64,000 bases of DNA, taken from the NCBI RefSeq assembly GCF_000310205.1, contig NZ_AMXE01000001.1:1-64000 (forward strand), read 5' to 3'. How positions within the stretch are numbered: the stretch's first letter is position 1; every line of letters starts with the position of its first letter. The stretch is from Thauera linaloolentis 47Lol = DSM 12138 (lineage in GTDB: Bacteria > Pseudomonadota > Gammaproteobacteria > Burkholderiales > Rhodocyclaceae). The notes beneath the pieces were generated by a model. It worked only from the letters and a program-made list of their open reading frames with translations. It ran no database searches and was not told where the DNA came from. Below are positions 18,388-37,798 of the stretch, piece after piece. The position numbers and the translations under genes were made by a program.

Positions 18388-18408
18388 ACACCAGCCTGCT
18401 CCACACAC

Positions 18409-18437: not shown

Positions 18438-18497
18438 GCTTTTCGGGGATGATTCGGCTCCCCCTCCGCCACCACTCCTCGTCCGGACAATCAGGCC

Positions 18498-19667: not shown

Positions 19668-19719
19668 GCCACGCGCAATCAAGTACACGCCGAAGCATGG
19701 ACGAACTGCAGCGCGGACA

Positions 19720-21590: not shown

Positions 21591-23171
21591 ATGAACCATA
21601 CCCATCTGCTGCACCAACTCATTCTCGCTTCCGCCCAACGCGATCCGGACGCCCCCGCCCTGACCTTCGGCAACGAGCATCGCAGCTATGCCCAGCTCGC
21701 AACCGACATTCATGCATTCGCTTCGGGCCTGCGCCAACTGGGCCTTGAACGCGGCGAACGCATCGGCATCTATCTGGACAAGCGCATCGAGACCGTCATC
21801 GGCATGTTCGGCGCCACCACGGCGGGCGGCGTGTTCGTGCCGGTGAACCCCATCCTCAAGGCCGAGCAGGTCGGCTACATCCTGCAGGACTGCAACGTGC
21901 GCGTGCTGCTGACCTCGCCCGAGCGCTTCACGGCGCTCGCCGGCACGCTGGCCAGTTGCCACGACCTGCGCCATGTCGTCCTGACCGGCATGCCTGCCGA
22001 GCTGCCGACGCTACCTGGCGCGTCGGTTCACCGCCTGACCGATCTCCTCGCCGCCACGGCGACACCCGGCCATCGCGTCATCGACGCCGACATGGCCGCC
22101 ATCCTCTATACCTCGGGCAGCACCGGCCGGCCGAAAGGCGTCGTGCTGTCCCATCGCAACATGGTCGCGGGCGCGAAGAGCGTCGCCCAGTATCTCGACA
22201 ACCATGCCGGCGACACGCTGCTGGCCGCGCTGCCACTGTCCTTCGACGCCGGCTTCTCGCAGTTGACCACCGCCTTTCACAGCGGTGCGCGCGTAGTGCT
22301 GCTCAACTACCTGATGCCACGCGACGTGCTCAAGGCGGTAGACAAGGAGAAGGTCACCGGCCTCACCGCCGTTCCGCCATTGTGGATCCAGCTCTCGCAA
22401 CTGCAATGGCCGGACACCATCACCGAACACCTGCGCTACATCGCCAACACCGGCGGACGCATGCCGCTGGAAACGCTGACCAAGCTGCGCGGCATGCTGC
22501 CGAAGACCAAGCCGTTCCTGATGTACGGCCTCACCGAGGCTTTCCGCGCGACCTACCTGCCGCCGGCAGAAGCCGACCGCCGGCCCGACTCCATCGGCAA
22601 GGCCATCCCCAATGCCGACGTGGTCGTACTGCGCGACGATGGCAGCGAATGCGCCCCCAACGAACCCGGCGAACTCGTCCAGCGCGGCGCACTGGTGGCA
22701 ATGGGCTACTGGAACGACCCCGAAAAAACCGCCGAGCGCTTCAAGCCGCTGCCCAGCCATGCGCCTGGCCGCCAGAGCGGCCTCGTGCTGCCCGAGCTGG
22801 CCGTGTTTTCCGGCGATACTGTGCGGCGTGACGACGAAGGCTTCCTGTACTTCATCGGACGCCGGGACGAGATGATCAAGACCTCCGGCTACCGCGTCAG
22901 CCCCACGGAAGTGGAAGAAATCCTCTACGCCACCAGGCTGGTCGGCGAATGCGCGGCCTTCGGCGTCGAGCATGACACGCTCGGGCAGAGCATCACCGTC
23001 ATCGCCACCCCGCCGCAGGGCGGCACGCTCGACGGCGCAGCGCTGCTCGCGGAATGCCGCCTGCGCATGCCGGCCTACATGGTCCCGCACCGCATCGAAG
23101 TGCGCGACGGGCCGCTGCCACGCAACCCCAACGGCAAAATCGACCGCAAGACCTTGTCGAGCGAAATCTGA
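21591..23171 (+). CDS. AMP-forming acyl-CoA ligase, exosortase A system-associated type
   Basis: The 526-residue enzyme belongs to the ANL superfamily. YTSGSTGRPKG at residues 173-183 is the AMP-binding P-loop, LMYGLTEAF the A5 motif, GDTVRRDDEGFLYFIGRRDEMIKTSGYRVSP the A7-A8 region (shown here only as family position), and K516 in NGKIDRK the catalytic A10 lysine. It resembles the ligase found specifically in XrtA loci (TIGR03098 type). Its substrate is unknown. The presence of a stand-alone acyl carrier protein and a PLP decarboxylase in the same island suggests it loads an acyl or aminoacyl group on that carrier; this is inference. The ATG at 21591 was preferred over one 39 bases upstream because homology starts there. 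First gene of a plus-strand run. Confidence 0.88.
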   Translation: MNHTHLLHQLILASAQRDPDAPALTFGNEHRSYAQLATDIHAFASGLRQLGLERGERIGIYLDKRIETVIGMFGATTAGGVFVPVNPILKAEQVGYILQDCNVRVLLTSPERFTALAGTLASCHDLRHVVLTGMPAELPTLPGASVHRLTDLLAATATPGHRVIDADMAAILYTSGSTGRPKGVVLSHRNMVAGAKSVAQYLDNHAGDTLLAALPLSFDAGFSQLTTAFHSGARVVLLNYLMPRDVLKAVDKEKVTGLTAVPPLWIQLSQLQWPDTITEHLRYIANTGGRMPLETLTKLRGMLPKTKPFLMYGLTEAFRATYLPPAEADRRPDSIGKAIPNADVVVLRDDGSECAPNEPGELVQRGALVAMGYWNDPEKTAERFKPLPSHAPGRQSGLVLPELAVFSGDTVRRDDEGFLYFIGRRDEMIKTSGYRVSPTEVEEILYATRLVGECAAFGVEHDTLGQSITVIATPPQGGTLDGAALLAECRLRMPAYMVPHRIEVRDGPLPRNPNGKIDRKTLSSEI

Positions 23172-23186
23172 AGCCTGCTCCTGGCC

Positions 23187-24404
23187 ATGCCCACCGACAA
23201 AGGAAGCGTCGCGCTATCTGCAGGCTTGCGAACCGGTTCCAGCAAGACTACCGCGCTCCGCGCCGGGCTGCTCGCCCTGGGTGCCGTCCTGTCTCTCGAC
23301 CTGGCCGCCGCGGTCCTCCGCGTCGGCCCCGGCGAGACGTTCGTGCGGATTGCCGATGCGGCGAAGTCCGCGCGCGACGGCGACATCGTCGAGATCATGC
23401 CCGGCGAATACCGTGGCGATGTCGCGGTCTGGAAGCAAGAACGTCTGCTCATCCGCGGCCTCGGCGAACGCCCGGTCCTGATCGCGGACGGCAGGGTCGC
23501 CGAAGGCAAGGCCATCTGGGTCATCCGTAACGGCGACATACAGGTCGAGAACATCGAATTTCGCGGCGCGCGAGCCGGCGACGGCAATGGCGCGGGTATC
23601 CGCTTCGAGCGCGGCCGCCTCGAAGTGCGCAACAGCACTTTCATCGACAACCAGATCGGCATCCTCACGGCGAATTTCGAGGATGCGGAACTCACGATCC
23701 ACGACAGCCTCTTCGCCCAGGCTCCACGCCAGGAGCGGCCACTTCCCCATCTGCTCTACGTGGGCCGCATCGCGCGCTTCGAGATCAGCGGCAGCCGTTT
23801 CCACCAGGGCTATCATGGCCATCTGCTCAAGTCGCGCGCGCGCTACAACGACATACGCTACAACCTGCTTTACGACGGGCCGCACGGCGAAGCCTCCTAC
23901 GAACTCGAACTGCCCAACGGCGGTGTGGCCTTCGTCGTGGGCAACATCATCGGCCAAAGCGCCAACACACAGAATCCGATCGTCATTGCCTACGGTGCCG
24001 AGGGCAATATCTGGCCCGACAGCGCCCTGTATCTGTCGCACAACACGCTGCTCAGCGACCGGCTGGCCGGCACGTGGTTTCTGCGAACCTTTTCCGACCA
24101 CTTGCCGCCCGATGCCGAAATCCTCGGCATCAACAACATCACGGCGGGTATCGGCGCATTCACGCTCACGGCCAGCGGCACATTCACGGGCAACGTTCCA
24201 CTTCCTCCCGGCGGCCTGCGCGACCCGGACACGCTCGACTTCCTCCCCCGCGGGAGCAGCCTGCTGCGCTGGGCCACGAAACCTGCCGGCAGCGTCCGCT
24301 CCATATCACTGGCCCCCGAAGCCGAATTCGCCTTGCCACGGGGAACCCGGCCTCTCCCGCCCCTGCGCCACTGGCTGCCCGGCGCACTGCAAAGCGGCGA
24401 CTGA
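23187..24404 (+). CDS. Right-handed parallel beta-helix protein, exported
   Basis: The 405-residue product has a hydrophobic segment at residues 26-42 after a 25-residue polar start, a late signal peptide or anchor. From about residue 45 to 300 it shows short repeated strands with ladders of I/V/F and N (GDIVEIMPGEYRG, IQVENIEFRGA, LEVRNSTFIDNQIGI, ARFEISGSRFHQG, FVVGNIIGQSA), typical of a right-handed parallel beta-helix as in polysaccharide lyases, pectin esterases and alginate epimerases. No catalytic motif is clear enough to name a reaction. It starts 15 bases after the acyl ligase and is surely in the same transcript. A role in trimming or modifying the exported polymer is an inference from fold and context. 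Confidence 0.75.
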   Translation: MPTDKGSVALSAGLRTGSSKTTALRAGLLALGAVLSLDLAAAVLRVGPGETFVRIADAAKSARDGDIVEIMPGEYRGDVAVWKQERLLIRGLGERPVLIADGRVAEGKAIWVIRNGDIQVENIEFRGARAGDGNGAGIRFERGRLEVRNSTFIDNQIGILTANFEDAELTIHDSLFAQAPRQERPLPHLLYVGRIARFEISGSRFHQGYHGHLLKSRARYNDIRYNLLYDGPHGEASYELELPNGGVAFVVGNIIGQSANTQNPIVIAYGAEGNIWPDSALYLSHNTLLSDRLAGTWFLRTFSDHLPPDAEILGINNITAGIGAFTLTASGTFTGNVPLPPGGLRDPDTLDFLPRGSSLLRWATKPAGSVRSISLAPEAEFALPRGTRPLPPLRHWLPGALQSGD

Positions 24405-24545
24405 TCGGCCTGGCTGCTCGAACCGGGCGAAAATCCGGCCTTCGCGTCATGATGAAGTGACACGTATCACTGACAATTCGTGTTCCATGCGGCATCATCC
24501 GCAGCGTTTCGTCTTTCTCGGCCCAGGTGGCCAACGGAGTTCTGT

Positions 24546-26342
24546 GTGCTAGAGCGGTTCTGTGGAGTACTTCACACGTCGGATGCAGCGACCGGCGCAA
24601 CCAACGGTTTCCCCGATCAACTGGCACGGGTCCAGTTTCCGCAAGGTGCAATCGGCTACCGAGCCGACGTAGCGGTGTTCCAGGAAGACGGGCGCCTCTG
24701 CCTCGCGCTCGGCACCCCCCGCTTCAAGGACGCCGCCCTGCAGCAGCTCCGGGAGCAGCGCGGCGTGGCCGCCGCCTGGGTACAGGCCTTCCGCACGCAC
24801 GGCGACGACGCCCTGAAACAGGCGAGCGGTCGTTTCAGCGTCATTCTGGTGGAGTCGGACGGACGGCAGGCACTGCTCGCCACCGACCGCTTCGGCACCT
24901 GGCCCGTGTGTTATGCCGAACATGATGGACGCCTGCATTTCTCCGACCGTGCCGACACCGTCCCCGGCGTTCGCCGGCAGGTTTCGCCACAGGCGGTGTT
25001 CGACTACCTTTTCTTCCACATGATTCCTGCGCCCACGACCATCTTCGAGGGCATCTACCGGCTGCCTCAGGGTCATCTGCTCAAGTGGCAGGACGGCAAG
25101 GCGGAATGCCGGCGCTGGTGGCAGCCGGTCTTCGAAGAAAGCACCAGCCCCGATCTCGAGCAATCCAAGGCGCGCTTCCTGCAGATCATCGAGGATGGCG
25201 TGCGCCACGAGGCCGAAGGCGTCGAAGTCGGCTGCTTCCTGTCCGGCGGCACCGACAGCTCCACGGTCACCGGCATGCTGTGCAAGGTGCTCGGCCAGCC
25301 TGCCCGCAGCTATTCGATCGGCTTCGATGCCAGCGGCTACGACGAGATGGAATATGCGCGCATCGCGGCCAGGCGCTTCGGCGCCGACCATCGGGAATAC
25401 TACGTCACGCCGGATGACCTGGTCGGTGGCATTCCGCTGGTAGCCACGCACTACGATCAGCCCTTCGGCAACTCCTCGGCCCTGCCGGGATGGATCTGCG
25501 CCACGCGCGCGCGCGAGGATGGCATCGACAAGATGCTCGCCGGCGATGGCGGCGACGAACTCTTCGGCGGCAACACCCGCTATGCCAAACAGCGCGTGTT
25601 CGGCTGGTACGAAGGCGTGCCCGGCCTGTTGCGCCGCGGCCTGCTCGAACCCACGCTGTCGCTGCCGGGCATGGATCGCATCCCGCTGGTGAAGAAGGGC
25701 GCGAGCTACGTCGAGCAGGCGCGCGTTCCGATGCCCGATCGCATCCACATGTACAACATGCTGGTGCGCCTCGGCATGGACACCGTATTCGAACCCGACT
25801 TCCTCGCCCGCATCGATCTCGAACAGCCGAAACGTGAACAGCGCGAAGTCTGGCAGGCGACCAACGCCCGCTCGCACATCAACCGCCTGCTCAACTATGA
25901 CTGGAAGTACACGCTCGCCGACAATGACCTGCCCAAGGTCATCGGCACCACGCAACTGGCCGGTGTCGATGTGGCCTTCCCGCTGCTCAGTGACGAACTC
26001 ACGGATTTCTCCACTACCCTGCCGCCGGAATGGAAGCTCAAGCGGCTGACCTTGCGCTGGTTCTTCAAGGAGGCCCTGCGCGGCTTCCTGCCCGACGAGA
26101 TCATCGCCAAGAAGAAGCATGGCTTCGGCCTGCCCTTCGGCGTGTGGGCCTGCCAGCATGCAGGCCTGAAGGCGCTTGCCACCGACGCCCTGGGCAGCTT
26201 CCGCAATCGCGGGATCGTCCGTCCGGCCTTCATCGATGCGCTCATTTCGACGCACCTTCCGGCCCACCCCGGCTACTATGGCGAGATGGTGTGGATCCTG
26301 ATGATGATGGAATTCTGGATGCGTGAGCACGTACCCGATTGA
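24546..26342 (+). CDS. Asparagine synthase-like protein with degenerate glutaminase domain
   Basis: The 598-residue protein has a C-terminal asparagine-synthase domain with the ATP pyrophosphatase loop SGGTDSS at residues 233-239, GDGGDELFGG and KKKHGFGLP. The N-terminal 180 residues hold the position of the class II glutaminase, but Cys6 is not next to the initiator, and the RGPD and NGEIYN motifs are absent. The glutaminase is therefore probably inactive, as in beta-lactam synthetase, where the synthase domain joins a carboxylate to an amine in the same substrate. The GTG at 24546 has CGGAG 6 bases before it; the longer GTG at 24480 lacks this. It is 34 bases from the PLP decarboxylase. True function is unknown; forming an amide within the island's decoration pathway is an inference. 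Confidence 0.85.
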   Translation: MLERFCGVLHTSDAATGATNGFPDQLARVQFPQGAIGYRADVAVFQEDGRLCLALGTPRFKDAALQQLREQRGVAAAWVQAFRTHGDDALKQASGRFSVILVESDGRQALLATDRFGTWPVCYAEHDGRLHFSDRADTVPGVRRQVSPQAVFDYLFFHMIPAPTTIFEGIYRLPQGHLLKWQDGKAECRRWWQPVFEESTSPDLEQSKARFLQIIEDGVRHEAEGVEVGCFLSGGTDSSTVTGMLCKVLGQPARSYSIGFDASGYDEMEYARIAARRFGADHREYYVTPDDLVGGIPLVATHYDQPFGNSSALPGWICATRAREDGIDKMLAGDGGDELFGGNTRYAKQRVFGWYEGVPGLLRRGLLEPTLSLPGMDRIPLVKKGASYVEQARVPMPDRIHMYNMLVRLGMDTVFEPDFLARIDLEQPKREQREVWQATNARSHINRLLNYDWKYTLADNDLPKVIGTTQLAGVDVAFPLLSDELTDFSTTLPPEWKLKRLTLRWFFKEALRGFLPDEIIAKKKHGFGLPFGVWACQHAGLKALATDALGSFRNRGIVRPAFIDALISTHLPAHPGYYGEMVWILMMMEFWMREHVPD

Positions 26343-26376
26343 TTTCCTGCCTCCCAGCAACGACACGAATGCCGAC

Positions 26377-27618
26377 ATGACCGAAGCCCGCCAAGCCCCC
26401 GTCCACACCCCGATGTCGCAGTTCCGGACCGAAGGGAACGAACTCCTCATCAACGGCCAGCCCATCAGCCGCATCGCCGCGCGCGTCGGACGCACGCCGT
26501 TCTACGCTTACGACCGCGGCCTGCTAGACGCCCGCGTGGCGCAACTGCGCGCCGCGCTGCCCAAGGCGGTCAAGCTGCACTACGCGATGAAGGCCAATCC
26601 CATGCCGGCGCTGGTGTGCCACATGGCAAAGCTGGTCGATGGCATCGACGTGGCCTCGGCGGGCGAACTGCTGGTTGCGCTGGATGCCGGCGCCGCCCCC
26701 CACGAAATCAGCTTCGCGGGCCCAGGCAAGACGGAAACCGAATTGCTTCAGGCCGTTGCCGCCGGCATCCTCATCAACATCGAATCCTTCCGCGAGTTGC
26801 CGCTCCTCGCCGCAGCCCAGCACGCACTGGGCCTGCCTGCGCGCGTCGCGGTGCGTGTCAACCCGGACTTCGAACTCAAGTCGTCGGGCATGAAGATGGG
26901 CGGTGGCCCCAAGCAGTTCGGCGTCGATGCCGAACAAGTGCCGGAACTGCTCGCCGCCATCGGCAGCGCCGGGCTGGCTTTCGAGGGCTTCCACCTGTTC
27001 GCCGGATCGCAGAACCTCAAACCCGAAGCCATCGTGGAAGCCCAGCAGAAGAGCTTTGCGCTCGCCTGCCGGCTGGCGGAGCACGCGCCCTCCCCGGTGA
27101 AATTCCTCAACCTCGGCGGTGGCTTCGGCATTCCCTACTTCCCCGGCGAGCAGCCGCTGGACCTCGCCCCCATCGGCGCCAACCTCGCCGCCATTGCCGA
27201 AGAAGCCCGCAGCGCCCTGCCCCAGGCAGAGATCGTCATCGAACTCGGCCGCTATCTCGTCGGCGAAGCCGGCCTGTACGTCGCCAGGGTGCTCGACAAG
27301 AAGATCTCGCGCGGCCATGTCTACCTCGTCACCAACGGCGGCCTGCACCATCACCTATCGGCATCGGGCAATTTCGGCCAGGTCATCCGCAAGAACTATC
27401 CCGCGGCAATCGCCAACCGGATGAATGCCGTGGTCCTGGAACCCGTTTCCGTGGTCGGCCCGCTGTGCACGCCGCTCGACCTGCTCGCCGACCGCATGAA
27501 CCTGCCGAGCGCCGAGCCAGGCGACCTGGTCGCCATCTACCAGTCAGGCGCCTATGGCGCCAGCGCCAGCCCGCAGCGCTTCCTGGGGCACCCGGCAGTG
27601 ACGGAAGTGCTCATCTGA
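26377..27618 (+). CDS. PLP-dependent decarboxylase, exosortase A system-associated type
   Basis: The 413-residue enzyme is a fold-type III alanine-racemase-like decarboxylase related to diaminopimelate decarboxylase. LHYAMKANP carries the PLP lysine, GGGFGIPYF the phosphate-binding glycine loop, and EPVSVVGPLCTPLD the catalytic cysteine region; ELGRYLVGEAG and SGAYGASASP are further family motifs. It matches the variant kept in XrtA loci (TIGR03099 type). DAP decarboxylase for lysine synthesis is normally elsewhere, so this copy is probably specialised. It would supply an amine or D-amino acid product to the adjacent ligases; the substrate is unknown. Start at 26377 is the likely ATG; a GTG at 26323 would overlap the previous gene by 20 bases. 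Confidence 0.88.
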   Translation: MTEARQAPVHTPMSQFRTEGNELLINGQPISRIAARVGRTPFYAYDRGLLDARVAQLRAALPKAVKLHYAMKANPMPALVCHMAKLVDGIDVASAGELLVALDAGAAPHEISFAGPGKTETELLQAVAAGILINIESFRELPLLAAAQHALGLPARVAVRVNPDFELKSSGMKMGGGPKQFGVDAEQVPELLAAIGSAGLAFEGFHLFAGSQNLKPEAIVEAQQKSFALACRLAEHAPSPVKFLNLGGGFGIPYFPGEQPLDLAPIGANLAAIAEEARSALPQAEIVIELGRYLVGEAGLYVARVLDKKISRGHVYLVTNGGLHHHLSASGNFGQVIRKNYPAAIANRMNAVVLEPVSVVGPLCTPLDLLADRMNLPSAEPGDLVAIYQSGAYGASASPQRFLGHPAVTEVLI

Positions 27619-27661
27619 AGCTCTGCCGGGCCAGGACACGGGACACAAGCGGACGACAGGG

Positions 27662-28810
27662 ATGCTGGCTCTCCTGATACTCATTTCCGTATTGATCGGC
27701 TATGGCTCGCTATATCCCTTCGATTTCTCCCTGGGCGAGAGGGGGCTGACCGAGGTCAGTACCTTCTTCACCCAGCCGGATCTACAGATGAGCCGCGGCG
27801 ATCTGGTCGGGAACCTACTTCTGTTCGCACCCTACGGCTTCGTAGCGGCGTCGATGGCCGGAACGCGCAAGCACCACCCTGCCTCAGCGCTCGCGGTCCT
27901 GCTTGGGCTTGGAGGATCGCTGGCACTGGCATTACAGATCGCCCAACTGTGGCTGCCAAGCCGCGTCCCTGCACTTGGCGACGTATTCGTCAACATCGCC
28001 GGCATGCTGCTTGGCGTCACCGCCGCGGGGCTGGCACGCCGCCTCATGCCGTCGCTGCCCGGCAACCGAAAACCCCTCATCCCCCTGGGGCTGGCGCTTT
28101 CGTGGCTCGCTTATCAGTGGTTCCCGTTCGTGCCGACGCTCGATCTGCAGAACATCACCAACGCGCTGAAGCCGCTGCTGCTTTCGCCACAGTTCGATGC
28201 ACCACGCACGCTGCATACAGCCGTCGCCTGGCTCGCGTTCTTCAAACTGTGGGACATCATTGCAGCCGGTAGAACATCCAGCCTGATGCTCGCCGCTGTG
28301 GGCGTATTCATTGTCGGCGCAAAAGTGCTCATCGTCGGTGCAGGCATCTCACTCAATAATGTCCTCGGGCTGGGGCTCGCCCTTGCCTTTCTGCGCTGGC
28401 GCAATGCGCCCTCGGCCCTGCCCGTGCTGCTCATCGCCATGCTGCTCAGCCTCTTTCTGTCAGGGCTGGCCCCCTTTGCCATCCAGAGCACACCCGAAGC
28501 ATTCCACTGGATTCCATTCACCGGCATGCTCGAAGGCGACATGGGCAACAACCTCATGAACCTGATCGAGAAGACGTACTTCTACGGCGCACTGATCCTG
28601 CTCATGGCCAGGCACGGCGCCCACCCGGTTCCGGCCTCCATCGCCGTTGCAGGCTGCCTCATCGCGGTCGAGGCGGCCCAGATCTTCATTGCAGGCAGAA
28701 CGGCGGAGACGACCGACCCGGTTCTCGCGCTCATCCTGGGGTTCGTGATTCAGCTTGGCATATCAAAGCGGTCGGCACACCACACACGACGCCCGCCGCA
28801 AAGCTACTGA
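27662..28810 (+). CDS. VanZ-family membrane protein
   Basis: This 382-residue protein is strongly hydrophobic with about ten membrane segments. The first 130 residues show the VanZ pattern: GYGSLYPFDF, GDLVGNLLLFAPYGF, LPSRVPALGDVFVNIAGMLLG; the second half repeats a similar pattern (NLMNLIEKTYFYGAL, FIAGRTAETTDPVLALILG), so it looks like a double VanZ unit. VanZ proteins occur in teicoplanin resistance and in many exopolysaccharide loci of the XrtA type; their activity is unknown. It lies between the PLP decarboxylase (43 bases) and the MBOAT gene (70 bases) on the same strand. I infer an accessory role in the membrane steps of polymer decoration. Confidence 0.85.
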   Translation: MLALLILISVLIGYGSLYPFDFSLGERGLTEVSTFFTQPDLQMSRGDLVGNLLLFAPYGFVAASMAGTRKHHPASALAVLLGLGGSLALALQIAQLWLPSRVPALGDVFVNIAGMLLGVTAAGLARRLMPSLPGNRKPLIPLGLALSWLAYQWFPFVPTLDLQNITNALKPLLLSPQFDAPRTLHTAVAWLAFFKLWDIIAAGRTSSLMLAAVGVFIVGAKVLIVGAGISLNNVLGLGLALAFLRWRNAPSALPVLLIAMLLSLFLSGLAPFAIQSTPEAFHWIPFTGMLEGDMGNNLMNLIEKTYFYGALILLMARHGAHPVPASIAVAGCLIAVEAAQIFIAGRTAETTDPVLALILGFVIQLGISKRSAHHTRRPPQSY

Positions 28811-28880
28811 CAAATAAATCCCCATCGGCGATCATCACCTGCCCACCACCCAAGTACGGTAACCATCGAGACACAGGCTG

Positions 28881-30467
28881 ATGCTGTTCAACTCCTACGA
28901 GTTTCTTTTCCTGTTCCTGCCTGTCACCTTCGCTGTCTATTTCTGGGTTGCGCGCAAAGGACGCGAGCCCGCCATCGTCTGGCTTGTTTTGGCATCTCTG
29001 TTTTTCTATGGATGGTGGAAGCCGGCCTATCTATTGCTGCTACTGGCATCAACGGCCGCCAACTTTGGCTTCGGCCTGATTCTGGGGCAATCTCACCGAC
29101 TTCGCAAACCCGCTGCGGGCAGATTCTGGCTGACCACTGGCGTCGTCTTCAACCTGGCATTACTGGGCTATTTCAAGTATGCAAATTTTGCCGTCGACAG
29201 CCTGAACGCTATTGCGAATACCCATTTCCATCTGGAAACAGTCATTCTGCCACTGGCAATATCATTTTTCACCTTTCAACAGATTGCATATCTCGTAGAC
29301 GCCTTCCAAGGCCAGGCACGAGAGTACCGTTTCGCTCACTACGCACTATTCGTCACATTCTTCCCCCAACTCATCGCCGGGCCAATCGTGCACCACCGCG
29401 ACATGCTCCCGCAATTCATGCAGCCCGGCGCACTCAGCCCACGGACCCAGCACATCGCGATCGGGCTCAGCATCTTCGCCCTAGGCCTGTTCAAGAAAAC
29501 CGTGCTGGCCGATGGTGTCGCCCAGTACGCTACTCCGGCCTTCAGTGCCGCCGCCGCAGGCGATTCGCTCACATTTTTCGAGGCATGGGGCGGCGCATTA
29601 GCCTACACATTGCAACTGTACTTTGACTTCTCCGGTTATTCCGACATGGCGATCGGCGCGGCTCGCTTATTCGGCATCGTGCTGCCGGTCAACTTTCATT
29701 CGCCCTATAAGGCAACCAACATCATCGAGTTCTGGCGTCGCTGGCACATGACGCTATCCACGTTTCTGCGCGATTACCTCTACGTCGCGCTCGGCGGCAA
29801 TCGCAGCGGCAAACTCAAGCGCTATCGCAATCTCATGCTTACTATGCTACTTGGCGGGCTATGGCACGGCGCGGGCTGGACTTTCATCGCCTGGGGAGCG
29901 CTCCATGGGCTCTACCTCTGTATCAATCACGCATGGCGGCACTTGGTCAGCCACATGTTTCCGGCTCCTCTATTACCCCGAATACTCTCGGCATCACTTT
30001 CATGGGCACTCACCTTCCTTGCCGTCGTCATCGGCTGGGTGTTCTTTCGCGCCGGCAGCGTCGATGCGGCGGCAGCGATACTCAAGGGTATGGCCGGCCT
30101 GAACGGCATCGCTCTTCCCAATGCCCTCGCAGCCCGGCTCGGTAGCATCTGGCCAGTCCTCGAGAGCCTAGGCATGCAGACTTACCTTGGTGGCGGCACA
30201 CACTTCATACTCAATTGGCTGTGGGTCCTCGCCCTACTCCCCATCGTGGTCGTCATGCCGAACACACAGGAAATCATGCGCGACTTCTTTCCAGGCATGC
30301 ACCTCCATCACGCAAGACCCGAGAATGAAGTCCATCCCCTGCCAGTAATCAAGAACCAGCTCATCTGGCGTCCCAACTCACGCTGGGCAGTCATCCTCGG
30401 CGTACTGGCGGGCCTCGGCGTACTTGCCATGACGAGCATTTCCGAATTCCTCTACTTCCAGTTCTGA
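28881..30467 (+). CDS. MBOAT-family O-acyltransferase (AlgI-like)
   Basis: The 528-residue integral membrane protein belongs to the membrane-bound O-acyltransferase family. It has at least ten hydrophobic segments, the MBOAT motif FWRRWHMTLSTFLRDYLY with His289, and GLWHGAGWTFIAWG with His329, the conserved catalytic histidine. AlgI and DltB-type relatives carry acyl groups across the inner membrane to acetylate alginate or alanylate teichoic acids. The next gene, 7 bases away, encodes an SGNH-like protein of the type that completes the transfer, so a two-part O-acylation machine is likely. The region is visibly richer in A and T than the housekeeping part of the window. Confidence 0.93.
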   Translation: MLFNSYEFLFLFLPVTFAVYFWVARKGREPAIVWLVLASLFFYGWWKPAYLLLLLASTAANFGFGLILGQSHRLRKPAAGRFWLTTGVVFNLALLGYFKYANFAVDSLNAIANTHFHLETVILPLAISFFTFQQIAYLVDAFQGQAREYRFAHYALFVTFFPQLIAGPIVHHRDMLPQFMQPGALSPRTQHIAIGLSIFALGLFKKTVLADGVAQYATPAFSAAAAGDSLTFFEAWGGALAYTLQLYFDFSGYSDMAIGAARLFGIVLPVNFHSPYKATNIIEFWRRWHMTLSTFLRDYLYVALGGNRSGKLKRYRNLMLTMLLGGLWHGAGWTFIAWGALHGLYLCINHAWRHLVSHMFPAPLLPRILSASLSWALTFLAVVIGWVFFRAGSVDAAAAILKGMAGLNGIALPNALAARLGSIWPVLESLGMQTYLGGGTHFILNWLWVLALLPIVVVMPNTQEIMRDFFPGMHLHHARPENEVHPLPVIKNQLIWRPNSRWAVILGVLAGLGVLAMTSISEFLYFQF

Positions 30468-30474
30468 AGCTGCC

Positions 30475-31707
30475 ATGGATCATGCACCTCAGTATCGCCG
30501 CTTCCTGACCTGGCTCATCGGCAGCTTCGTTGCCATCTGTTCCTTGGCTGCCGGGATCAACTACGTCATCGATCCCTATGGGCTATTCGGGACGGCCCGC
30601 ATCGACGGCCTGAACGCCCGAAAGCCCGCAGCAGGAGAGCGTGTTCGCACAACCAAACCCTACATGGCGACAGCCCTTGGCCCGATGACCGTCATCGCAG
30701 GCAATTCACGCCCGGAACTCGGCCTCGACCCCCAGAGCCCATGCTGGCAGGAAGACGACCAACCCGTCTTCAATACCGGCATCCCCGGCGCCAGCTTTTA
30801 TATGCAAACACAGTACGCCAAACACGCACTCTCGGCGGGCAGAGGAAAGAAAGTGCTACTTGGTGTTGATTTCCTCGATTTCCTCATTGACACCTCTACC
30901 CAGTCCTCCATGCCCCCGACAGACTGGGCGAGCCTGGCAACGAGCTATGCCGGCCGGCTCGACATTCCCAACGAAAGTGCAGGTGCCTGGCAAGAGATCA
31001 GTACCCAGGCACAGGACAAGCTGAGTGCCCTCTTTTCGCTCAACACTCTCGCCGACTCACTCTTCACCACCGTCCAACAGCGCGCTCCCTTCACAACCGA
31101 CCGCCGTGCCGACGGATTCAACCCCGGACATGACTACGAGGCAATCATCCGCAGCGAAGGGCAATACGTGCTGTTCCAGCAAAAAAACGCCGAACTCATT
31201 GCACGTCTAAGCAGACCGGGGCTCGGGCTCTTCATTGCCGGCCGAGCACACTCTGAGAGCCTGGAAGCGCTGAGAAACTTTCTCGCCTGGGCACAGCGCG
31301 AAGACGTTGAAGTAAGCCTGTTCATCAACCCCTATCACCTGGACTATCTGCGGACCATTCAGGCTGCGGGCCTATGGCCTGCATTCGATGACTGGAAACG
31401 GCACATCACCCGGATCGCCAACGAATTCGGCACCCCATTGTGGGATTTCAATAGCGTAGACGCCTATTCCAGCGAAACACCCCCAGGACGCGGCGAACGT
31501 GGCGCAAGCATCCACTGGTACTGGGAACCCGCCCACTACAAGCGCGAAATGGGGGAGTTAATGTTGGCGAAGTTGCTGGGAAGAAACTGTGCAACTGAAG
31601 ACCTCATGTCCTCTCCTGGCACGCGCCTGTCCGCCGAAGGGCTCGAACAGCATCTCGCCAGACTTCGTTCAGGCTGGCCAGATCCCCAGGCCTCCCCGGC
31701 ACGGTAG
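30475..31707 (+). CDS. SGNH-like protein, partner of the MBOAT acyltransferase
   Basis: The 410-residue protein has a single N-terminal membrane anchor at about residues 12-32 and a large periplasmic domain. IAGNSRPELGLD holds Ser78 in a GNSR motif, and WYWEPAHYK holds Glu351 and His354 in an E-x-x-H arrangement, which together match the Ser and Asp/His blocks of SGNH hydrolase-like O-acyltransferases such as AlgJ/AlgX and DltD-type partners. In those systems the SGNH protein takes the acyl group from the MBOAT protein and places it on the polymer. Overall similarity to named members is low, so the assignment rests on motif positions and the 7-base spacing to the MBOAT gene. Confidence 0.7.
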   Translation: MDHAPQYRRFLTWLIGSFVAICSLAAGINYVIDPYGLFGTARIDGLNARKPAAGERVRTTKPYMATALGPMTVIAGNSRPELGLDPQSPCWQEDDQPVFNTGIPGASFYMQTQYAKHALSAGRGKKVLLGVDFLDFLIDTSTQSSMPPTDWASLATSYAGRLDIPNESAGAWQEISTQAQDKLSALFSLNTLADSLFTTVQQRAPFTTDRRADGFNPGHDYEAIIRSEGQYVLFQQKNAELIARLSRPGLGLFIAGRAHSESLEALRNFLAWAQREDVEVSLFINPYHLDYLRTIQAAGLWPAFDDWKRHITRIANEFGTPLWDFNSVDAYSSETPPGRGERGASIHWYWEPAHYKREMGELMLAKLLGRNCATEDLMSSPGTRLSAEGLEQHLARLRSGWPDPQASPAR

Positions 31708-31839
31708 AGCTGAGTCAGTCCCCTGATGCGCCCACCAGGCACAGCATAGTTTTCTTCCACACCAGTTGAAGTCGCTCCGATCACGACACCCGTGACAGAA
31801 TAAGAGATACTCCACTCTGACTGATACCAACGGAAAAGC

Positions 31840-33009
31840 ATGTCGAATACCCACTCCCCCCCCGGCGCCATCGTTGTGGGCCTGTGCGCCCATGGCATTG
31901 GCATGGTTCGCAGCCTGCATCGTGCTGGAGTGCGCGTCATCGCACTAGAAGCAAATCCGACCTTGCCGGGCATGCGCACCCATTGCGCTGAAATACGCAT
32001 CGTTCCTGACATAAACAACGAAGGGCTTATCGATGCATTGGTCGCGCTAGCCAAGGACAAACCTGACAGCCAAGGCGACGTCCTGCTGCTCACAAACGAC
32101 AAAATGGTCGAAGTGGTCGGCAGACATGCAGAAGTTGTTTCTCGTCACTTCAAGTTGAGTTGGTGTCATGCCACGGCATCGCTTGTTCCCTTACTGGCAA
32201 AAGATCAAATCGAGGCCCGGTGCCACGACACGGGCCTGAACTACCCGGCGTCCATACTCCTGACTGATTTTGACGAGGCGCCGCAAAAACTGGCCAGCCT
32301 TGGATTTCCGGTCATTGCCAAACCCATCCGCCCCGTATCCGCCTTCAAGACACAGGTTTCCGACTCAACAGATGCTTTCATGAGCGCACGCACACGCATG
32401 GAAGCCAGCATGCCAATCATTGCGCAGGAGTTCATCGAAGGCGATGATACGACGATCCGTTTCGGAGCACTCTATCTCGATGCAGGGCGAATACTGGCGC
32501 GCTTTGAAGGCCGGAAGTTGCGCTCTCGCCCGATGGGCCATACTACGATCGCAGTCTCGGAGCCCAACGATGAAGTTCATTCTCTGGTTTGCAAATTCTT
32601 CGAGGGACTGAATTTATCCGGCCCAGTGTCACTGGAACTCAAGCGTGATCCTGCAGGCCAGTATTGGGTCATCGAACCTACAGTGGGGCGAACAGACTTC
32701 TGGGCAGGTTTGTGCGCGGCAAATGGTGTGGACCTCACACTACTTGAATACGCGTCCACTGCGAAGCTGCCGCTACCTGCAACAATGCAGCGCAAAACCC
32801 ACCTTTGGGTAAACGGCGAGCGCGACCCTGGAGCCTTATTCTGGCTATTATTCAAGGCTCCTCAATACCTTGTCGGCAAGAGGATAGAAGGAGTCTACTT
32901 CGACTTTCACGACAAAGGTCCATTTCTCATTTCAGCGTGGCGCTTCCTGGCGGACATCCCTAAACGGGCCATTCGTCGCTCATTACGCATACTCAGGAAT
33001 CCAGGGTGA
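31840..33009 (+). CDS. ATP-grasp ligase of unknown substrate
   Basis: The 389-residue cytoplasmic protein has the carbamoyl-phosphate-synthase-like ATP-grasp layout: an N-terminal nucleotide-fold part (VVGLCAHGIGMVRSL, VIALEANP), then LAKDQIEARC, PVIAKPIRP for the ATP-binding lysine, IAQEFIEGDDTTI, and LELKRDPAGQYWVIEP for the Mg-binding glutamates. Such ligases activate a carboxylate as acyl-phosphate and join it to an amine. Its substrate is not known. GC content is low for this window: 27 of 60 bases in both 32101-32160 and 32881-32940. Standing at the end of the plus-strand block after a 132-base gap, it may be a later acquisition, or belong to the amide-forming part of the decoration pathway. 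Confidence 0.82.
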   Translation: MSNTHSPPGAIVVGLCAHGIGMVRSLHRAGVRVIALEANPTLPGMRTHCAEIRIVPDINNEGLIDALVALAKDKPDSQGDVLLLTNDKMVEVVGRHAEVVSRHFKLSWCHATASLVPLLAKDQIEARCHDTGLNYPASILLTDFDEAPQKLASLGFPVIAKPIRPVSAFKTQVSDSTDAFMSARTRMEASMPIIAQEFIEGDDTTIRFGALYLDAGRILARFEGRKLRSRPMGHTTIAVSEPNDEVHSLVCKFFEGLNLSGPVSLELKRDPAGQYWVIEPTVGRTDFWAGLCAANGVDLTLLEYASTAKLPLPATMQRKTHLWVNGERDPGALFWLLFKAPQYLVGKRIEGVYFDFHDKGPFLISAWRFLADIPKRAIRRSLRILRNPG

Positions 33010-33076
33010 GCCGAATGCAATGCGCACGCCTGTGAGTCCGAGCACCCCGGGCAGACAAGCAAAACGCCTGACACCC

Positions 33077-33109
33077 GCGGGAAGCCCGGATATTCATTGA
33101 GCTTCCCGC
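33077..33109. terminator. Hairpin between convergent ATP-grasp and TPR genes
   Basis: GCGGGAAGC at 33077-33085 pairs exactly with GCTTCCCGC at 33101-33109 around a 15-base loop. It lies where two convergent transcripts meet and overlaps the last codons of the TPR gene. No T-run follows in either direction, so it is at best a weak or factor-assisted terminator. Confidence 0.3.
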
Positions 33110-33729
33110 CACTTGCCCATGCGCTTTAACTTATCCCTTAGTCCTAGCAGCGGAAAACCCGCCGCATAGGCACGGTGCGCGCTTTGCAGCGCCTTCTCGT
33201 GCTGCCCGGCATCCAAGTAAGCAAGCCCAAGATTGTACTGAATATTTGCATCGCTCTCATCGAGAGCAGCACCCTGCTCGAGCTTTGCAATGGCCTCTCC
33301 GCTCTTACCGCTTCTTAGCAGGAAGATTCCATGCAGCACCTTGACCATTGCATCATCCGGCCTAAAAACCTCGGCGCGTTGAAACCAGCATGAAATCGAA
33401 TAGCGAGACCCTGCTGGAGTGCTTCTCTTTTCCTTTCTGCCCAAGTCCATCATCGCTTTCAATGCACGATGGTGATTTGGCGAGGCACGCAGTGTGTAAT
33501 CGATGTCGCCCCCAGCAGTCGTACTCGTCCGGCCACGTTCCAGACTCTCGATTTGAGGCGTGAAGTGCACTCTTTCAACGATCACCAATTCGCGGGTCTG
33601 AGTACGATAGTCGAACGGCCCGTACGCATTCGCAAGCTCGCCGCATTCGGGCGAAAGCATCTGCCCATAGGCGACCGGACATGAGACACAAAGCACAAGC
33701 GCCAAAGGCATCGCCAAACCGTACTTCAT
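33094..33729 (-). CDS. Exported TPR-repeat protein
   Basis: The product has 211 residues from the ATG at 33729. Residues 1-22 are a signal peptide (MKYGLAMPLALVLCVSCPVAYG). The first half contains CGELANAYGPFDYR and a block rich in charged residues; the second half (about 110-200) holds two to three tetratricopeptide-like helical pairs, such as VLHGIFLLRSGKSGEAIAKLEQGAALDESDAN (described by position 130-160) followed by NLGLAYLDAGQHEKALQSAHRAY. TPR domains bind other proteins. It is the last gene of the minus-strand run ACP - hydrolase 2 - hydrolase 1 - TPR and lies 28 bases after hydrolase 1. A role in periplasmic complex assembly is an inference. Confidence 0.78.
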   Translation of the reverse strand: MKYGLAMPLALVLCVSCPVAYGQMLSPECGELANAYGPFDYRTQTRELVIVERVHFTPQIESLERGRTSTTAGGDIDYTLRASPNHHRALKAMMDLGRKEKRSTPAGSRYSISCWFQRAEVFRPDDAMVKVLHGIFLLRSGKSGEAIAKLEQGAALDESDANIQYNLGLAYLDAGQHEKALQSAHRAYAAGFPLLGLRDKLKRMGKWREAQ

Positions 33730-33757
33730 TTCAGTCCATCTCCCATTCGAACGACAA

Positions 33758-34612
33758 TCAGAACTGTCCGGCGATCCTGCCGCACCAATCAGCCGACAGG
33801 TCGGCCACTTGCCCCCTGTACTCTGCGCTGGAGAAAGTGTGATCGGCTTCCGCAAGATGCTTGACCGTGTTCGCATCGAGCAGTTGCGCCCATATAGCAT
33901 CGCCACGCCATACCTGCTCGAACTCGCGGGCCACATAATCCCTCCCGCTCAGCACGAACAGCACCGATAACCCAGCCTGCCGCAGCCCTGCCAACATCCG
34001 TTGGGGCAAATCACCTCCCGCGGCTCCGTCTGCGTCACCAGACGCACGCGCCCGCCCCAGCGCCGCCGACAGGCTCGCAGCCGACTGCCCGACACGAACG
34101 CCACCACTCAGCAGCTTGAGCCAAAAGGCGCGGGAGAAGAGCCGCTTCAGGTAGTAGTGCTTGAGATAGGTTTGAGCCTCACCCTGGGCTGTCCTCACCC
34201 AAGGATTCAACAGCACCAACCCGCGGACACGCTCATCGGTCGGAGCATAGAAGCATGCCGCACTGGCACCATCACACAGCCCCCATAGGACTACGCCGCG
34301 CAATTCGGGCACCTGGCGGCAGAACCCATCCACCGCTGCACGCACATCGTCATTCAGCGCTTCAAAACTGCTGGGGGCACCGGAGGCGTCACCCATTCCT
34401 CGGTAATCGAAGCGCATGCAGGCCATCCCATGCCCTGCAAGAGCACGCGCCAGCAAAGTGAACTGGCGATGGCTTCCCACCCGATACTGCGGGCCGCCAA
34501 CGATCACGAGTACCCCGAGCGGCCCAGCCTCCCCCTCGGGCCGCGATACCACGCCCACGAGTTCATCCTTGCCGCATTCGAAGAGGAAAGCCTCATCACG
34601 TACCGCTGTCAT
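33758..34612 (-). CDS. Alpha/beta hydrolase 1, exosortase A system-associated type
   Basis: The 284-residue protein has the alpha/beta hydrolase fold: VLVIVGGPQYRVGSHRQ as oxyanion region, CMRFDYRGMGDASG, the nucleophile elbow WGLCDGAS and the late ADHTFSSAEYR with the catalytic His. The elbow has Cys113 where serine is normal, giving a Cys-His type as in dienelactone hydrolase. It matches the first of two hydrolases kept together in XrtA loci (TIGR03100 type). It overlaps hydrolase 2 by 4 bases (ATGA), so the two are translationally coupled. The substrate is unknown; releasing or moving an acyl group from the neighbouring carrier protein is a reasonable inference. Confidence 0.88.
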   Translation of the reverse strand: MTAVRDEAFLFECGKDELVGVVSRPEGEAGPLGVLVIVGGPQYRVGSHRQFTLLARALAGHGMACMRFDYRGMGDASGAPSSFEALNDDVRAAVDGFCRQVPELRGVVLWGLCDGASAACFYAPTDERVRGLVLLNPWVRTAQGEAQTYLKHYYLKRLFSRAFWLKLLSGGVRVGQSAASLSAALGRARASGDADGAAGGDLPQRMLAGLRQAGLSVLFVLSGRDYVAREFEQVWRGDAIWAQLLDANTVKHLAEADHTFSSAEYRGQVADLSADWCGRIAGQF

Positions 34613-35445
34613 ACGAACCGCTCCAAAGCCACTAGTGAACGTTCGATCAGCGCGGGGACTTCTTCGATTTCCTGCGTCTGCCAGAAAGCGCTTCCTTCGA
34701 CCACGTCGGCCGTCACATCCGCGCCGGCCTGCACTCCGCTTTCGACCAGGCGTGCAAGCCCGGGCGACACAGCCTGTCGGTCACCACTTACTACTTCCAG
34801 TAGCACAACTGGCTCAGCGATGGCAGCAGCATTCAGGCACACTGCCGCTCGCTCCATGCCTGCCACAAGGCCGGAGGCAAGTGCATAACCAGCCACTTCC
34901 ACCGTCTCACCGCGCTGCATTGCATCGCGCAGTGCGGCCATCGCAGCACGGGCATCGGATTCGGCCAACATCTCGCTCGCGGCCTTCAGGCGCAGAAACT
35001 GGGTGAGATGCTGCTTGCCATTGGTCACCGGCTGCCATCCCAACCAGGCTGCGCGCGTTCCACTCGACGCAAGCCAATCACTCACCAGCAGGCTTCCGGC
35101 CCTCAGGCTCCACAAAGCCGGCATCAAGCCAAACCGCTCCTTCAGCCAGCCGTATCCCAACCCGACGTCGTTCACCCAGGCCTGCCACGAAGCGTCGCCG
35201 AAATCCCCCGCGCTATCTCCACACCCTAAGCAATCGAGTTGCAGCACGGCCCAACCGCTCTCGGCGAAAGCACGCGTGGCAAGCGCTACCATACGGCGTG
35301 ATTTGTTCAGCTCTTCGGCAAACGGATGCACAAACAAAAGAGCCCCACGCGGCGCCCTCGACGGCATGGTCAGCAAGCAGAAACGGCCACCGCCCGGAGC
35401 GGGCATGAAGAATGCATCGCGCCGAAGCGCAGCAAGCCCCGTCAA
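34609..35445 (-). CDS. Alpha/beta hydrolase 2, exosortase A system-associated type, nucleophile replaced
   Basis: The 278-residue protein has the alpha/beta hydrolase fold (GALLFVHPFAEELNKSRR, VLQLDCLGCGDSAGD). The nucleophile elbow reads WSLRAGS, so the central residue is Arg115 rather than Ser or Cys, and no clear catalytic His is seen near the C-terminus, where EGSAFWQTQEIEEVPAL stands. This matches the second hydrolase of XrtA loci (TIGR03101 type), whose members share this odd elbow to my knowledge. It may therefore bind an acyl group rather than cleave it. It overlaps both the ACP gene and hydrolase 1 by 4 bases, a tight operon of carrier and two hydrolase-fold proteins. Confidence 0.86.
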   Translation of the reverse strand: MTGLAALRRDAFFMPAPGGGRFCLLTMPSRAPRGALLFVHPFAEELNKSRRMVALATRAFAESGWAVLQLDCLGCGDSAGDFGDASWQAWVNDVGLGYGWLKERFGLMPALWSLRAGSLLVSDWLASSGTRAAWLGWQPVTNGKQHLTQFLRLKAASEMLAESDARAAMAALRDAMQRGETVEVAGYALASGLVAGMERAAVCLNAAAIAEPVVLLEVVSGDRQAVSPGLARLVESGVQAGADVTADVVEGSAFWQTQEIEEVPALIERSLVALERFV

Positions 35446-35690
35446 GCCAGCTTGCCCTCGACGAAATCCACCAGGGTGCCAACGGTGGCAAACGACGAAC
35501 CATCGATCTCGTCATCCTCGACGATGAAGCCAAAACGCTCCTCGAGCATGTTGATGACCCCGACCACCGCCATCGAGTCGAGCTCGGGCACTGCCCCCAG
35601 CAGAGGGGTGTCGCGATCGTACGCGAGCGCCCGCCCGCCGAGACTCAAGACTTCGTCGATGACTGCCAGAACCTCTTTACTGATATCCAA
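35442..35690 (-). CDS. Acyl carrier protein of the exopolysaccharide locus
   Basis: This 82-residue acidic, helical protein is a stand-alone acyl carrier protein. The phosphopantetheine site is the serine in PELDSMAVVGVI, near residue 38, and LEERFGFIVEDDEIDG forms the next helix and loop. It is shorter and divergent from the fatty-acid AcpP, which would be elsewhere next to fab genes. Being first in an operon with two alpha/beta hydrolase-fold proteins, and in an island with an AMP-forming ligase, it probably carries an acyl or aminoacyl group as thioester for decoration of the polymer. The carrier assignment is firm; the cargo is unknown. Confidence 0.9.
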   Translation of the reverse strand: MDISKEVLAVIDEVLSLGGRALAYDRDTPLLGAVPELDSMAVVGVINMLEERFGFIVEDDEIDGSSFATVGTLVDFVEGKLA

Positions 35691-37094: not shown

Positions 37095-37798
37095 GCCCAT
37101 CTAGCGTATGCAAGACGCTGAGTACCCTGGGCGTCGCAAACGGCTTGCTCTATCTGGTGAATCGTACTCTTCAGAAAGCCAGCGGCAACCGCGCGCTCAT
37201 CGCGCGTTATCATTTTTTTGCCCAGCCTGTCCGGGCCCATACGGAGCCTGCCGTCCGTGCTTCGTCGAAGTCGCTGGTGCGTGCGATCAATCTGGATGAC
37301 CCCATCGTAAAGGCTTTTCCGCGCCCCCCCCATGTAATCGTCCAGCGCTTCCGAAACGGTGCGACCTGTTTCACAGCAGAGCATGACGGACAGTTTTCCG
37401 GTTTCCTGTGGCTAGCACGCAACGCTTACGATGAAGACGAAGTGCGCTGCCGTTATGAACTCGAACCACAAGCGTCGTGCGCATGGGATTACGATATTTA
37501 CGTGGAGCCCCGATACAGAATCGGCCGCACCTTCGCACGCCTCTGGGATGCTGCAAACGCTCATCTCGCCGAGCAAGGCGTGCGTTGGAGCCTGTCCCGC
37601 ATTTCCTCGTTCAATGTCGCATCCATTGCCGCGCACAAGCGTCTTGGGATAACGAAACTCTGTTCTGCCACTTTCGTGGTGGTCGGCAGGCTGCAAGTCT
37701 CGTTTCTGCCTGCACCGCCCTACATCCACGTCAGTGCTGATGGCGCCAAAACCCCGGTAATACGACTCCAGGCTCCCTCCCGTTCAGAGGCGACATGA
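37091..37798 (+). CDS. GNAT-like acyltransferase of the exopolysaccharide locus
   Basis: The 235-residue product starts at a GTG that overlaps the stop of the glycosyltransferase gene; a longer open frame upstream lies inside that gene and is not used. The C-terminal half resembles the GCN5-type N-acyltransferase fold: CFTAEHDGQFSGFLWLARN, YDIYVEPRYRIGRTFARLWDAANAHL (acetyl-CoA-binding loop region around 145-165) and SSFNVASIAAHKRLGI, the typical GNAT ending. The first 70 residues are unlike anything I know. It may acylate an amino sugar of the repeat unit or of a precursor. Codon use here is more AT-rich than in the core genes. Confidence 0.65.
   Translation: MSPSSVCKTLSTLGVANGLLYLVNRTLQKASGNRALIARYHFFAQPVRAHTEPAVRASSKSLVRAINLDDPIVKAFPRPPHVIVQRFRNGATCFTAEHDGQFSGFLWLARNAYDEDEVRCRYELEPQASCAWDYDIYVEPRYRIGRTFARLWDAANAHLAEQGVRWSLSRISSFNVASIAAHKRLGITKLCSATFVVVGRLQVSFLPAPPYIHVSADGAKTPVIRLQAPSRSEAT

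Follow-up and report, generated by a model that had tools for sequence, protein, structure and literature searches.

The window analysed here is a stretch of 64,000 nucleotides from Thauera linaloolentis 47Lol = DSM 12138 (contig NZ_AMXE01000001.1, positions 1 to 64,000), and the system in question is a group of genes at positions 21591–35690, which share the window with an exosortase A (XrtA) locus. The plus strand of this region encodes, in order, a ligase, a beta-helix protein, an asparagine-synthase-like protein, a pyridoxal phosphate (PLP)-dependent decarboxylase, a VanZ-like protein, an MBOAT protein, an SGNH-like protein, and an ATP-grasp protein. The minus strand encodes a tetratricopeptide repeat (TPR) protein, two hydrolase-fold proteins (hydrolase 1 and hydrolase 2), and an acyl carrier protein (ACP); the genes for ACP, hydrolase 2, and hydrolase 1 follow one another so closely that the end of each overlaps the start of the next. 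Beyond the region, the exosortase A locus encodes XrtA, a FemAB-like protein, a deacetylase, an ATPase, a kinase, and chain-length proteins.

A sequence-only reading of this region had described a decoration module inside an exosortase A exopolysaccharide island, in which the ligase loads an acid on the ACP, the decarboxylase makes a free amine, amide ligases join the two, and the MBOAT and SGNH-like proteins move the group outside. The island is borne out by the exosortase A match, and the genes named in that reading are all present at the positions it gave, with family scores far above chance in all but two cases. The SGNH-like protein does follow the MBOAT protein and carries a GNSR-like motif by eye, but has no match in Pfam or NCBIfam. 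The ATP-grasp protein has weak NCBIfam matches, but none in Pfam. Three proteins had gone unnamed: the beta-helix protein, the VanZ-like protein, and a GNAT-fold protein near the ACP gene, which may be relevant to the route.

To define what is conserved, we applied curated family cut-offs to one sample of 219 genomes of the phylum. Exosortase A scores over its cut-off in 19 genomes; the corresponding numbers are 17 for the ligase, 18 for the decarboxylase, 15 for hydrolase 1, and 4 for hydrolase 2. Some exosortase A match occurs in 46 of the 219. The exosortase A genomes hold 15 of the 17 ligases, 16 of the 18 decarboxylases, and all 15 hydrolases 1 (Fisher test, P = 8e-18, 2e-19, and 6e-20, respectively, with kinship ignored and 11 of the 19 exosortase A genomes coming from one family, f38). 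A sixteenth hydrolase 1, slightly below the cut-off, likewise lies in an exosortase A genome. All 17 genomes with a ligase over the cut-off have the decarboxylase, and an ACP is found near the ligase or the decarboxylase in each of the 18 decarboxylase genomes, hereafter the module genomes. Ligase and decarboxylase are far apart in one genome (G101), where the ACP adjoins the decarboxylase. Two module genomes (G105 and G135) have no exosortase A over the cut-off; ligase, decarboxylase, and ACP lie together in both. Weaker ligase relatives extend to 35 of the 219 genomes at E <= 1e-120.

A sample of named genomes gave 80 ligase loci, of which 54 are long (at least 20 kb); the 26 short loci stand outside the long-locus counts. 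The long loci include a decarboxylase in 51 cases, hydrolase 1 in 27, hydrolase 2 in 26, and an asparagine-synthase-like protein in 8. Where both frames are present, ligase and decarboxylase are always on the same strand (51/51) and nearly always less than 500 bp apart (50/51). Zoogloea (L149) and Accumulibacter (L190) are among the named genomes with ligase, decarboxylase, ACP, and both hydrolases in the locus. The conserved module is smaller than had been proposed: ligase, decarboxylase, ACP, and hydrolase 1, kept with exosortase A. In this part the sequence-only reading holds, both in that several of the families are kept in XrtA loci and in that co-occurrence supports one pathway for ligase, ACP, and decarboxylase.

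The ligase family is named as an acyl-CoA ligase. Its own family aside, the window ligase scores 271 bits against the amino-acid adenylation model TIGR01733 and 300 bits against fatty acyl ligases. Among solved structures, linear gramicidin synthase rows come first on summed domains, while VinN (290 bits) exceeds either single domain (260 and 208 bits). When only the pocket region is searched, with a profile from an alignment of 11 ligases, VinN is the best solved match at 83 bits (next protein, 60 bits; DltA, 46 bits). The alignment to VinN is gapless around the beta13-beta14 loop, which is one or two residues shorter than in LgrA A2, and Asp220, Thr288, and Arg320 face VinN Asp230, Ser299, and Arg331. 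We take Arg331 to be the residue that binds the alpha-carboxylate. Asp230 holds the beta-amino group, and a short loop carries Lys330 and Arg331 (PMC11253843, available part); residues 246, 315, and 347 of the VinN chain correspond to Asp230, Ser299, and Arg331 of that paper, with an offset of 16 that fits Phe231 and Lys330 too.

Asp220 and Arg320 are invariant across a set of 27 ligases that comprises the window ligase, other family members, and relatives; Ser or Thr occupies position 288 in 26 of them. The Asp and Arg pair is also present in 79 of the 80 ligases of the named genomes. By comparison, a control set of 30 AMP-forming ligases from three genomes, reduced to 22 by leaving out six that the strand rule did not recognise and two family members, has the Asp in four and the Arg in none. 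VinN uses 3-methylaspartate and FlvN uses aspartate (PMC11284099, available part). From these residues, we read the “acyl-CoA ligase” as a probable amino-acid-adenylating enzyme whose pocket is of the VinN beta-carboxyl type. In addition, a relative of the system (genome G014, locus L104) has a fused protein at 8448–10376 between its ligase and decarboxylase, comprising a methylaspartate mutase E chain (472 bits) and a B12-binding stretch (31.8 bits, just below the cut-off of 32.1). An ACP and a PIG-L deacetylase are encoded close by. A glutamate mutase forms 3-methylaspartate in vicenistatin biosynthesis (according to the available part of PMC11284099), and we regard the mutase of G014 as an independent hint to the substrate.

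The ACP has the Asp-Ser phosphopantetheine site in 18 of 18 cases. Removal of an alpha-carboxyl by PLP chemistry needs the amino acid to be attached to its carrier through the side-chain carboxyl, a need that would fit a VinN-type ligase. The decarboxylase, for which the ATG at 26377 may be the true start, has BtrK as its best solved relative (7ru7 and 2j66; 280 bits by single sequence and 366 by profile), compared with 162 and 235 bits for the best diaminopimelate (DAP) decarboxylase. Its motif GPLCTPLD resembles GPLCTPED of BtrK, and CTPLD is present in all 18 family members, whereas the two DAP decarboxylases compared have CE(S/T)xD, one of them being the genome's own LysA with CESGD. Among 69 decarboxylases read from the named loci, 61 have CTP and two CTS; three were unread, and three show other letters, possibly misread. 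A role as LysA was rejected on this motif and on a TIGR01048 score of 241 bits against a cut-off of 298. BtrK and SbnH belong to a decarboxylase group outside polyamine metabolism, several members of which use amino acids with a large group, and BtrK acts on BtrI-S-glutamate (PMC7857480, available part). Similarly, decarboxylation by VinO requires prior thioester formation (PMC11284099, available part). By its scores and motif, the window enzyme is BtrK-like, and a carrier-bound amino acid is its expected substrate.

We propose that the trio of ligase, ACP, and decarboxylase generates a carrier-bound beta-amino-acyl group, much as the vicenistatin and fluvirucin starter enzymes do. The pocket residues suggest that the ligase would adenylate the beta-carboxyl of L-aspartate and load it onto the ACP. 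The decarboxylase, judged by its family, would then strip the free alpha-carboxyl of aspartyl-S-ACP to leave beta-alanyl-S-ACP. While we infer this substrate and product from the enzymes themselves, the last and weakest step is suggested by gene neighbours: a GNAT-fold acyltransferase, or hydrolase 1 with hydrolase 2, would take the beta-alanyl group off the ACP and attach it to the exopolysaccharide or its precursor. The acceptor there would be an amino group, probably that of an amino sugar unmasked by a deacetylase. Thauera exopolysaccharide contains N-acetylglucosamine and N-acetylfucosamine, with possible non-sugar substituents, and a Thauera floc mutant differs in deacetylation (PMC4784049, as far as available). 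The XrtA-system deacetylase in the window could expose such an acceptor amine. We are fairly confident that the core decarboxylates an acidic amino acid while it is bound to a carrier; the whole route, from aspartate through aspartyl-S-ACP and beta-alanyl-ACP to the exopolysaccharide, we consider on balance probable.

Hydrolase 1 has a Gly-x-Cys-Asp motif, and its Cys113, Asp225, and His258 are invariant in 16 of 16 proteins. In a predicted model (predicted local distance difference test score, pLDDT, 89.6), whose nearest folds are feruloyl and other esterases, Cys113 lies between strand and helix, at the nucleophile elbow. The Cys is also found in 27 of 30 proteins from the named loci and a Ser in none, three not being read by the motif rule. 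With Cys rather than Ser in all 16, we rejected a serine alpha/beta hydrolase. Since Cys nucleophiles serve acyltransferases (PhaC) and hydrolases (dienelactone hydrolase) alike, they do not fix the reaction, and hydrolase 1 is possibly an acyltransferase or a thioesterase. Hydrolase 2 has Arg at the nucleophile place in 16 of 16 rows, assigned by motif (nine rows chosen because they lie between ACP and hydrolase 1, one from a fused frame, and six from the window or tblastn). Its nucleophile appears to be lost, and it is probably a non-catalytic partner of hydrolase 1; the two are read in one open frame in G119. The pair of hydrolase-fold enzymes seen earlier would then be one Cys enzyme and a companion.

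Several other neighbours might carry out the transfer. Several f38 genomes encode PF13480 proteins between ACP and ligase. In G019, hydrolase 1 is followed by an exosortase-associated acyltransferase (TIGR03694) that also has a weak autoinducer-synthase match. The window has a weaker GNAT-like protein close to its ACP (PF00583, over the cut-off), and others are encoded in G204 and G105 (below it). One of four GNAT types is found in 41 of the 80 loci, although GNATs are common and these counts come without a background rate; among the 27 long loci with hydrolase 1, 23 have one. In a Nocardioides locus (L180), the trio is accompanied by a flippase and glycosyltransferases (both identified by eye), together with a GNAT and a deacetylase-like protein; this locus gave no match to hydrolase 1 or exosortase A. 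Likewise, the trio of G105 lies near its weak GNAT and a polysaccharide deacetylase. Given such neighbours, and L180 in particular, the GNAT-fold protein is the first candidate for transfer, and since L180 has polysaccharide genes and no exosortase A match, a role in the polysaccharide is favoured over one in the exosortase reaction. We set aside the FemAB-like protein as transferase: it is present too in the G203 and G015 loci, which have no ligase over the cut-off, and so is not tied to the module.

The remaining genes of the region are distributed differently. The MBOAT, SGNH-like, and ATP-grasp proteins have no match in any of the 54 long ligase loci, and tblastn mapping of 36 loci, each of 20 kb, shows none either (best non-overlapping matches). 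Across all 80 named loci, MBOAT occurs in three and SGNH in one, and among 37 whole genomes searched, the SGNH-like protein is found only in its own. The exception is an 11.8 kb contig of a Methylomonas metagenome-assembled genome (L174) with ligase, decarboxylase, SGNH, MBOAT, both hydrolases, ACP, a partial GNAT, and an exosortase A match. Distant ATP-grasp relatives (E <= 1e-5) occur in four of 36 other genomes (G119, G019, G192, and G205), near module or exosortase genes in the first two. On these counts we rejected MBOAT as part of the module, the Methylomonas contig being the exception; it probably serves a separate decoration.

The asparagine-synthase-like protein scores 244 bits against TIGR03108, far below the cut-off of 817, and a canonical member of that family lies elsewhere in the window (46645–48729). 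Its glutaminase is indeed lost, as had been described: the N-terminal Met-Cys, RGPD, and NGEIYN motifs are gone from all three proteins of this kind compared, and SGGTDSS is kept. As a joining enzyme it was rejected, its eight long loci being really seven, as L193 fits the canonical kind better. The best explanation is that MBOAT/SGNH, ATP-grasp, and asparagine-synthase-like proteins are lineage-specific additions. Relatives of the beta-helix protein lie close to the module in G205 and L163.

Table 1. Features of the window, with predicted roles and the matches behind them.
Feature	Position	Strand	Basis
Amino-acid adenylating ligase, predicted to load the Asp beta-carboxyl onto ACP	21591–23171	+	TIGR03098, 821 bits (cut-off 592)
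Right-handed beta-helix protein, accessory	23187–24404	+	Weak matches to PF13229 and NosD-type models
Asparagine-synthase-like amide former without working glutaminase, accessory	24480–26342	+	Family match, motif comparison
PLP-dependent decarboxylase, BtrK-like, predicted aspartyl-ACP substrate	26323–27618	+	TIGR03099, 637 bits (cut-off 478)
VanZ-like membrane protein, accessory	27662–28810	+	PF04892, 49 bits
MBOAT O-acyltransferase	28881–30467	+	PF03062, 132 bits; best solved relative DltB, 115 bits
SGNH-like partner of MBOAT	30475–31707	+	No family match; named from place after MBOAT and GNSR-like motif by eye
ATP-grasp protein, accessory	31840–33009	+	NCBIfam PRK12767-type models, at most 44 bits; none in Pfam
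Hydrolase 1, alpha/beta-hydrolase fold	33758–34612	-	TIGR03100, 315 bits (cut-off 168)
Hydrolase 2	34609–35445	-	TIGR03101, 258 bits (cut-off 203)
Stand-alone ACP	35442–35690	-	Best solved match 2lki, 64 bits
GNAT-fold protein near ACP, candidate N-acyltransferase	about 37037–37798	+	PF00583, 24.9 bits (cut-off 20.7)
Exosortase A	49777–51309	-	TIGR03109, 342 bits; carries EpsI-type domain
XrtA-system polysaccharide deacetylase	53620–54534	-	TIGR03006, 448 bits

Elsewhere in the window, a second AMP-forming ligase, PaaK-like, lies at 41709–43067 (NF045666, 164 bits, below the cut-off of 300) and is 54–67% conserved in three further exosortase A loci (L106, L109, and L112). A protein at 45400–46488 has no NCBIfam match; its relative in G119 (34%; L093, 935–1915) lies close to the module. 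There is also a thiamine pyrophosphate (TPP) riboswitch at 963–1058 (70 bits). Trio-like genes occur in other settings as well. Operons of ligase, ACP-like protein, and decarboxylase at L097, L098, and L099, in genomes without exosortase A over the cut-off, are apparently another use of the trio. A Streptomyces locus (L211, Streptomyces sp. NBRC 109706, 8299–19719) has a 53% identical ligase and a carrier-protein match beside an ABC transporter, a polyketide synthase, and an FkbH-like protein (all three by eye). A 6.5 kb contig of Micromonospora craterilacus (L173), possibly a contaminant, has a 57% identical ligase, a decarboxylase, an ACP, and a GNAT.

Several observations weigh against the aspartate route. 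The short loop of the ligase is common to many control acyl-CoA ligases, so it is the Asp and Arg that discriminate, and one of the 80 ligases of the named genomes (L228) lacks the Asp. Position 288 varies: the window ligase has Thr, VinN has Ser, and the G014 ligase next to the mutase has Ala. In an IQ-TREE phylogeny of the decarboxylases, BtrK groups with L100, L102, and L103 (66%) and not with the TIGR03099 family; support is 93% for the branch that unites PDB 6knh with that family and its relatives, and only 56% for the 18 members of the family as a group. As the deep branches are poorly supported, it is the scores and the motif that carry the likeness to BtrK. An ACP was found in just 41 of the 54 long loci, and the transferase candidates vary by lineage (GNAT in 29 and hydrolase 1 in 27 of the 54). 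Three of the 19 exosortase A genomes (G203, G015, and G007, all of one family) have neither ligase nor decarboxylase at the thresholds used. Finally, glutamate remains compatible as a substrate, and the distribution of panD, described below, suits a beta-alanine product and a rival equally.

If the same trio used glutamate, it would make 4-aminobutyryl-ACP, as in butirosin. BtrK, the best solved relative of the decarboxylase, does use glutamyl-ACP, but the Asp and Arg found in the ligase are those of the aspartate-type VinN and one relative has a methylaspartate mutase, and we judge this unlikely. Another rival starts from the supply of beta-alanine, for which the usual source is PanD, aspartate decarboxylase. 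Here the trio would again make beta-alanyl-ACP, and hydrolase 1 would free beta-alanine for pantothenate and coenzyme A (CoA) in cells without PanD. We find panD in 106 of the 219 genomes, but in none of the 18 module genomes compared with 106 of the 201 others (Fisher test, P = 3e-6, kinship ignored), whereas panC is present in all 24 genomes tested, 18 of them with the module. The absence of panD fits cells with another route to beta-alanyl groups. However, kinship is a serious confounder and may account for the pattern, because only two of the six families with the module hold any panD genome in the sample. Moreover, 95 of the 201 others lack panD and have no decarboxylase over the cut-off, the module genes are found mostly alongside exosortase A, hydrolase 1 is unmatched in G105 and G135, and the prosthetic group of the carrier itself depends on CoA. 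We therefore consider a supply role quite unlikely, somewhat more so than the use of glutamate.

The route of the sequence-only reading has all of its genes in one island, and the Methylomonas contig unites ligase, decarboxylase, ACP, hydrolases, MBOAT, and SGNH with an exosortase A match. Even so, MBOAT/SGNH and ATP-grasp are not conserved with the module, as counted above, and the decarboxylase, there a maker of free amine for the amide ligases, is nearest to an enzyme that works on a carrier-bound amino acid. The ligase, there a loader of an unspecified acid, has a pocket that suits amino acids and resembles those of beta-carboxyl activators of 3-methylaspartate and aspartate. We rejected the free-amine route on these grounds and hold it to be very improbable. 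Marginally less probable again is a Dlt-like system, in which the ligase charges the ACP with an amino acid that MBOAT then takes from it across the membrane together with SGNH, as DltA-D do with D-alanine. A ligase, a small carrier, an MBOAT with DltB as its best solved relative, and an SGNH-like protein do share one region; nevertheless, this would leave the decarboxylase superfluous, MBOAT is not kept with the ligase, and the pocket is closer to VinN than to DltA. It was likewise rejected. The least probable of these readings extends the aspartate route: the beta-alanyl group would be a free primary amine on the exopolysaccharide or a lipid-linked precursor, serving as the exosortase A acceptor for the cleaved PEP-CTERM C-terminus. 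On this view, the association of a carrier-bound beta-alanine maker with exosortase A would be accounted for. Yet the amine could be at most one of several acceptors, because three of the 19 exosortase A genomes lack the module and the trio occurs in G105 and L180 with no exosortase A found.

The proposed core has counterparts in known systems. With vicenistatin and fluvirucin (VinN, VinL, and VinO; FlvN), it shares a stand-alone adenylating enzyme, a stand-alone ACP, a PLP decarboxylase, and the Asp and Arg of the VinN pocket. The same order, with decarboxylation after thioester formation (PMC11284099, available part), is proposed for the window trio. In contrast to those polyketide clusters, window-type trios lie in or near exopolysaccharide loci of Proteobacteria, with hydrolases 1 and 2 or a GNAT as neighbours. 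The butirosin genes BtrI, BtrJ, and BtrK share a carrier protein in the locus and the decarboxylase closest among solved structures. In butirosin, the acyl group is destined for a sugar-linked amine and the carrier is loaded by an ATP-grasp enzyme, whereas the window system would load through an adenylating ligase. DltABCD shares a ligase, carrier, MBOAT, and SGNH-like protein close together, but here a decarboxylase is present, and MBOAT and SGNH are not conserved with the ligase.

The XrtA-associated families TIGR03098–TIGR03101 are named in NCBIfam as acyl-CoA ligase, decarboxylase, and hydrolases; all four score over their cut-offs here, and we read them as one carrier-bound route. In the open-licence literature searched, these families have names but no chemistry. 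We found no paper there for TIGR03098, TIGR03099, ligase_PEP_1, or exosortase-A-associated protein phrases, and none joining exosortase, decarboxylase, exopolysaccharide, and acyl carrier protein, or beta-alanine, exopolysaccharide, amide-linked, and amino sugar. The terms ligase, decarboxylase, hydrolase, and acyl carrier are absent from the available part of Haft 2006 (PMC1569441).

If the aspartate route is correct, these four exosortase A-linked families would form one short pathway with a definite product, an aspartate-derived beta-alanine on exopolysaccharide. The “acyl-CoA ligase” annotation would be corrected, and an antibiotic-style starter step would be placed in envelope polysaccharide assembly. 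A free amine on the polymer would alter how it is charged and cross-linked, and the question of the exosortase acceptor could then be put to the test. The beta-alanine would be expected on the exopolysaccharide of organisms that form flocs and biofilms, Zoogloea and Accumulibacter among them.

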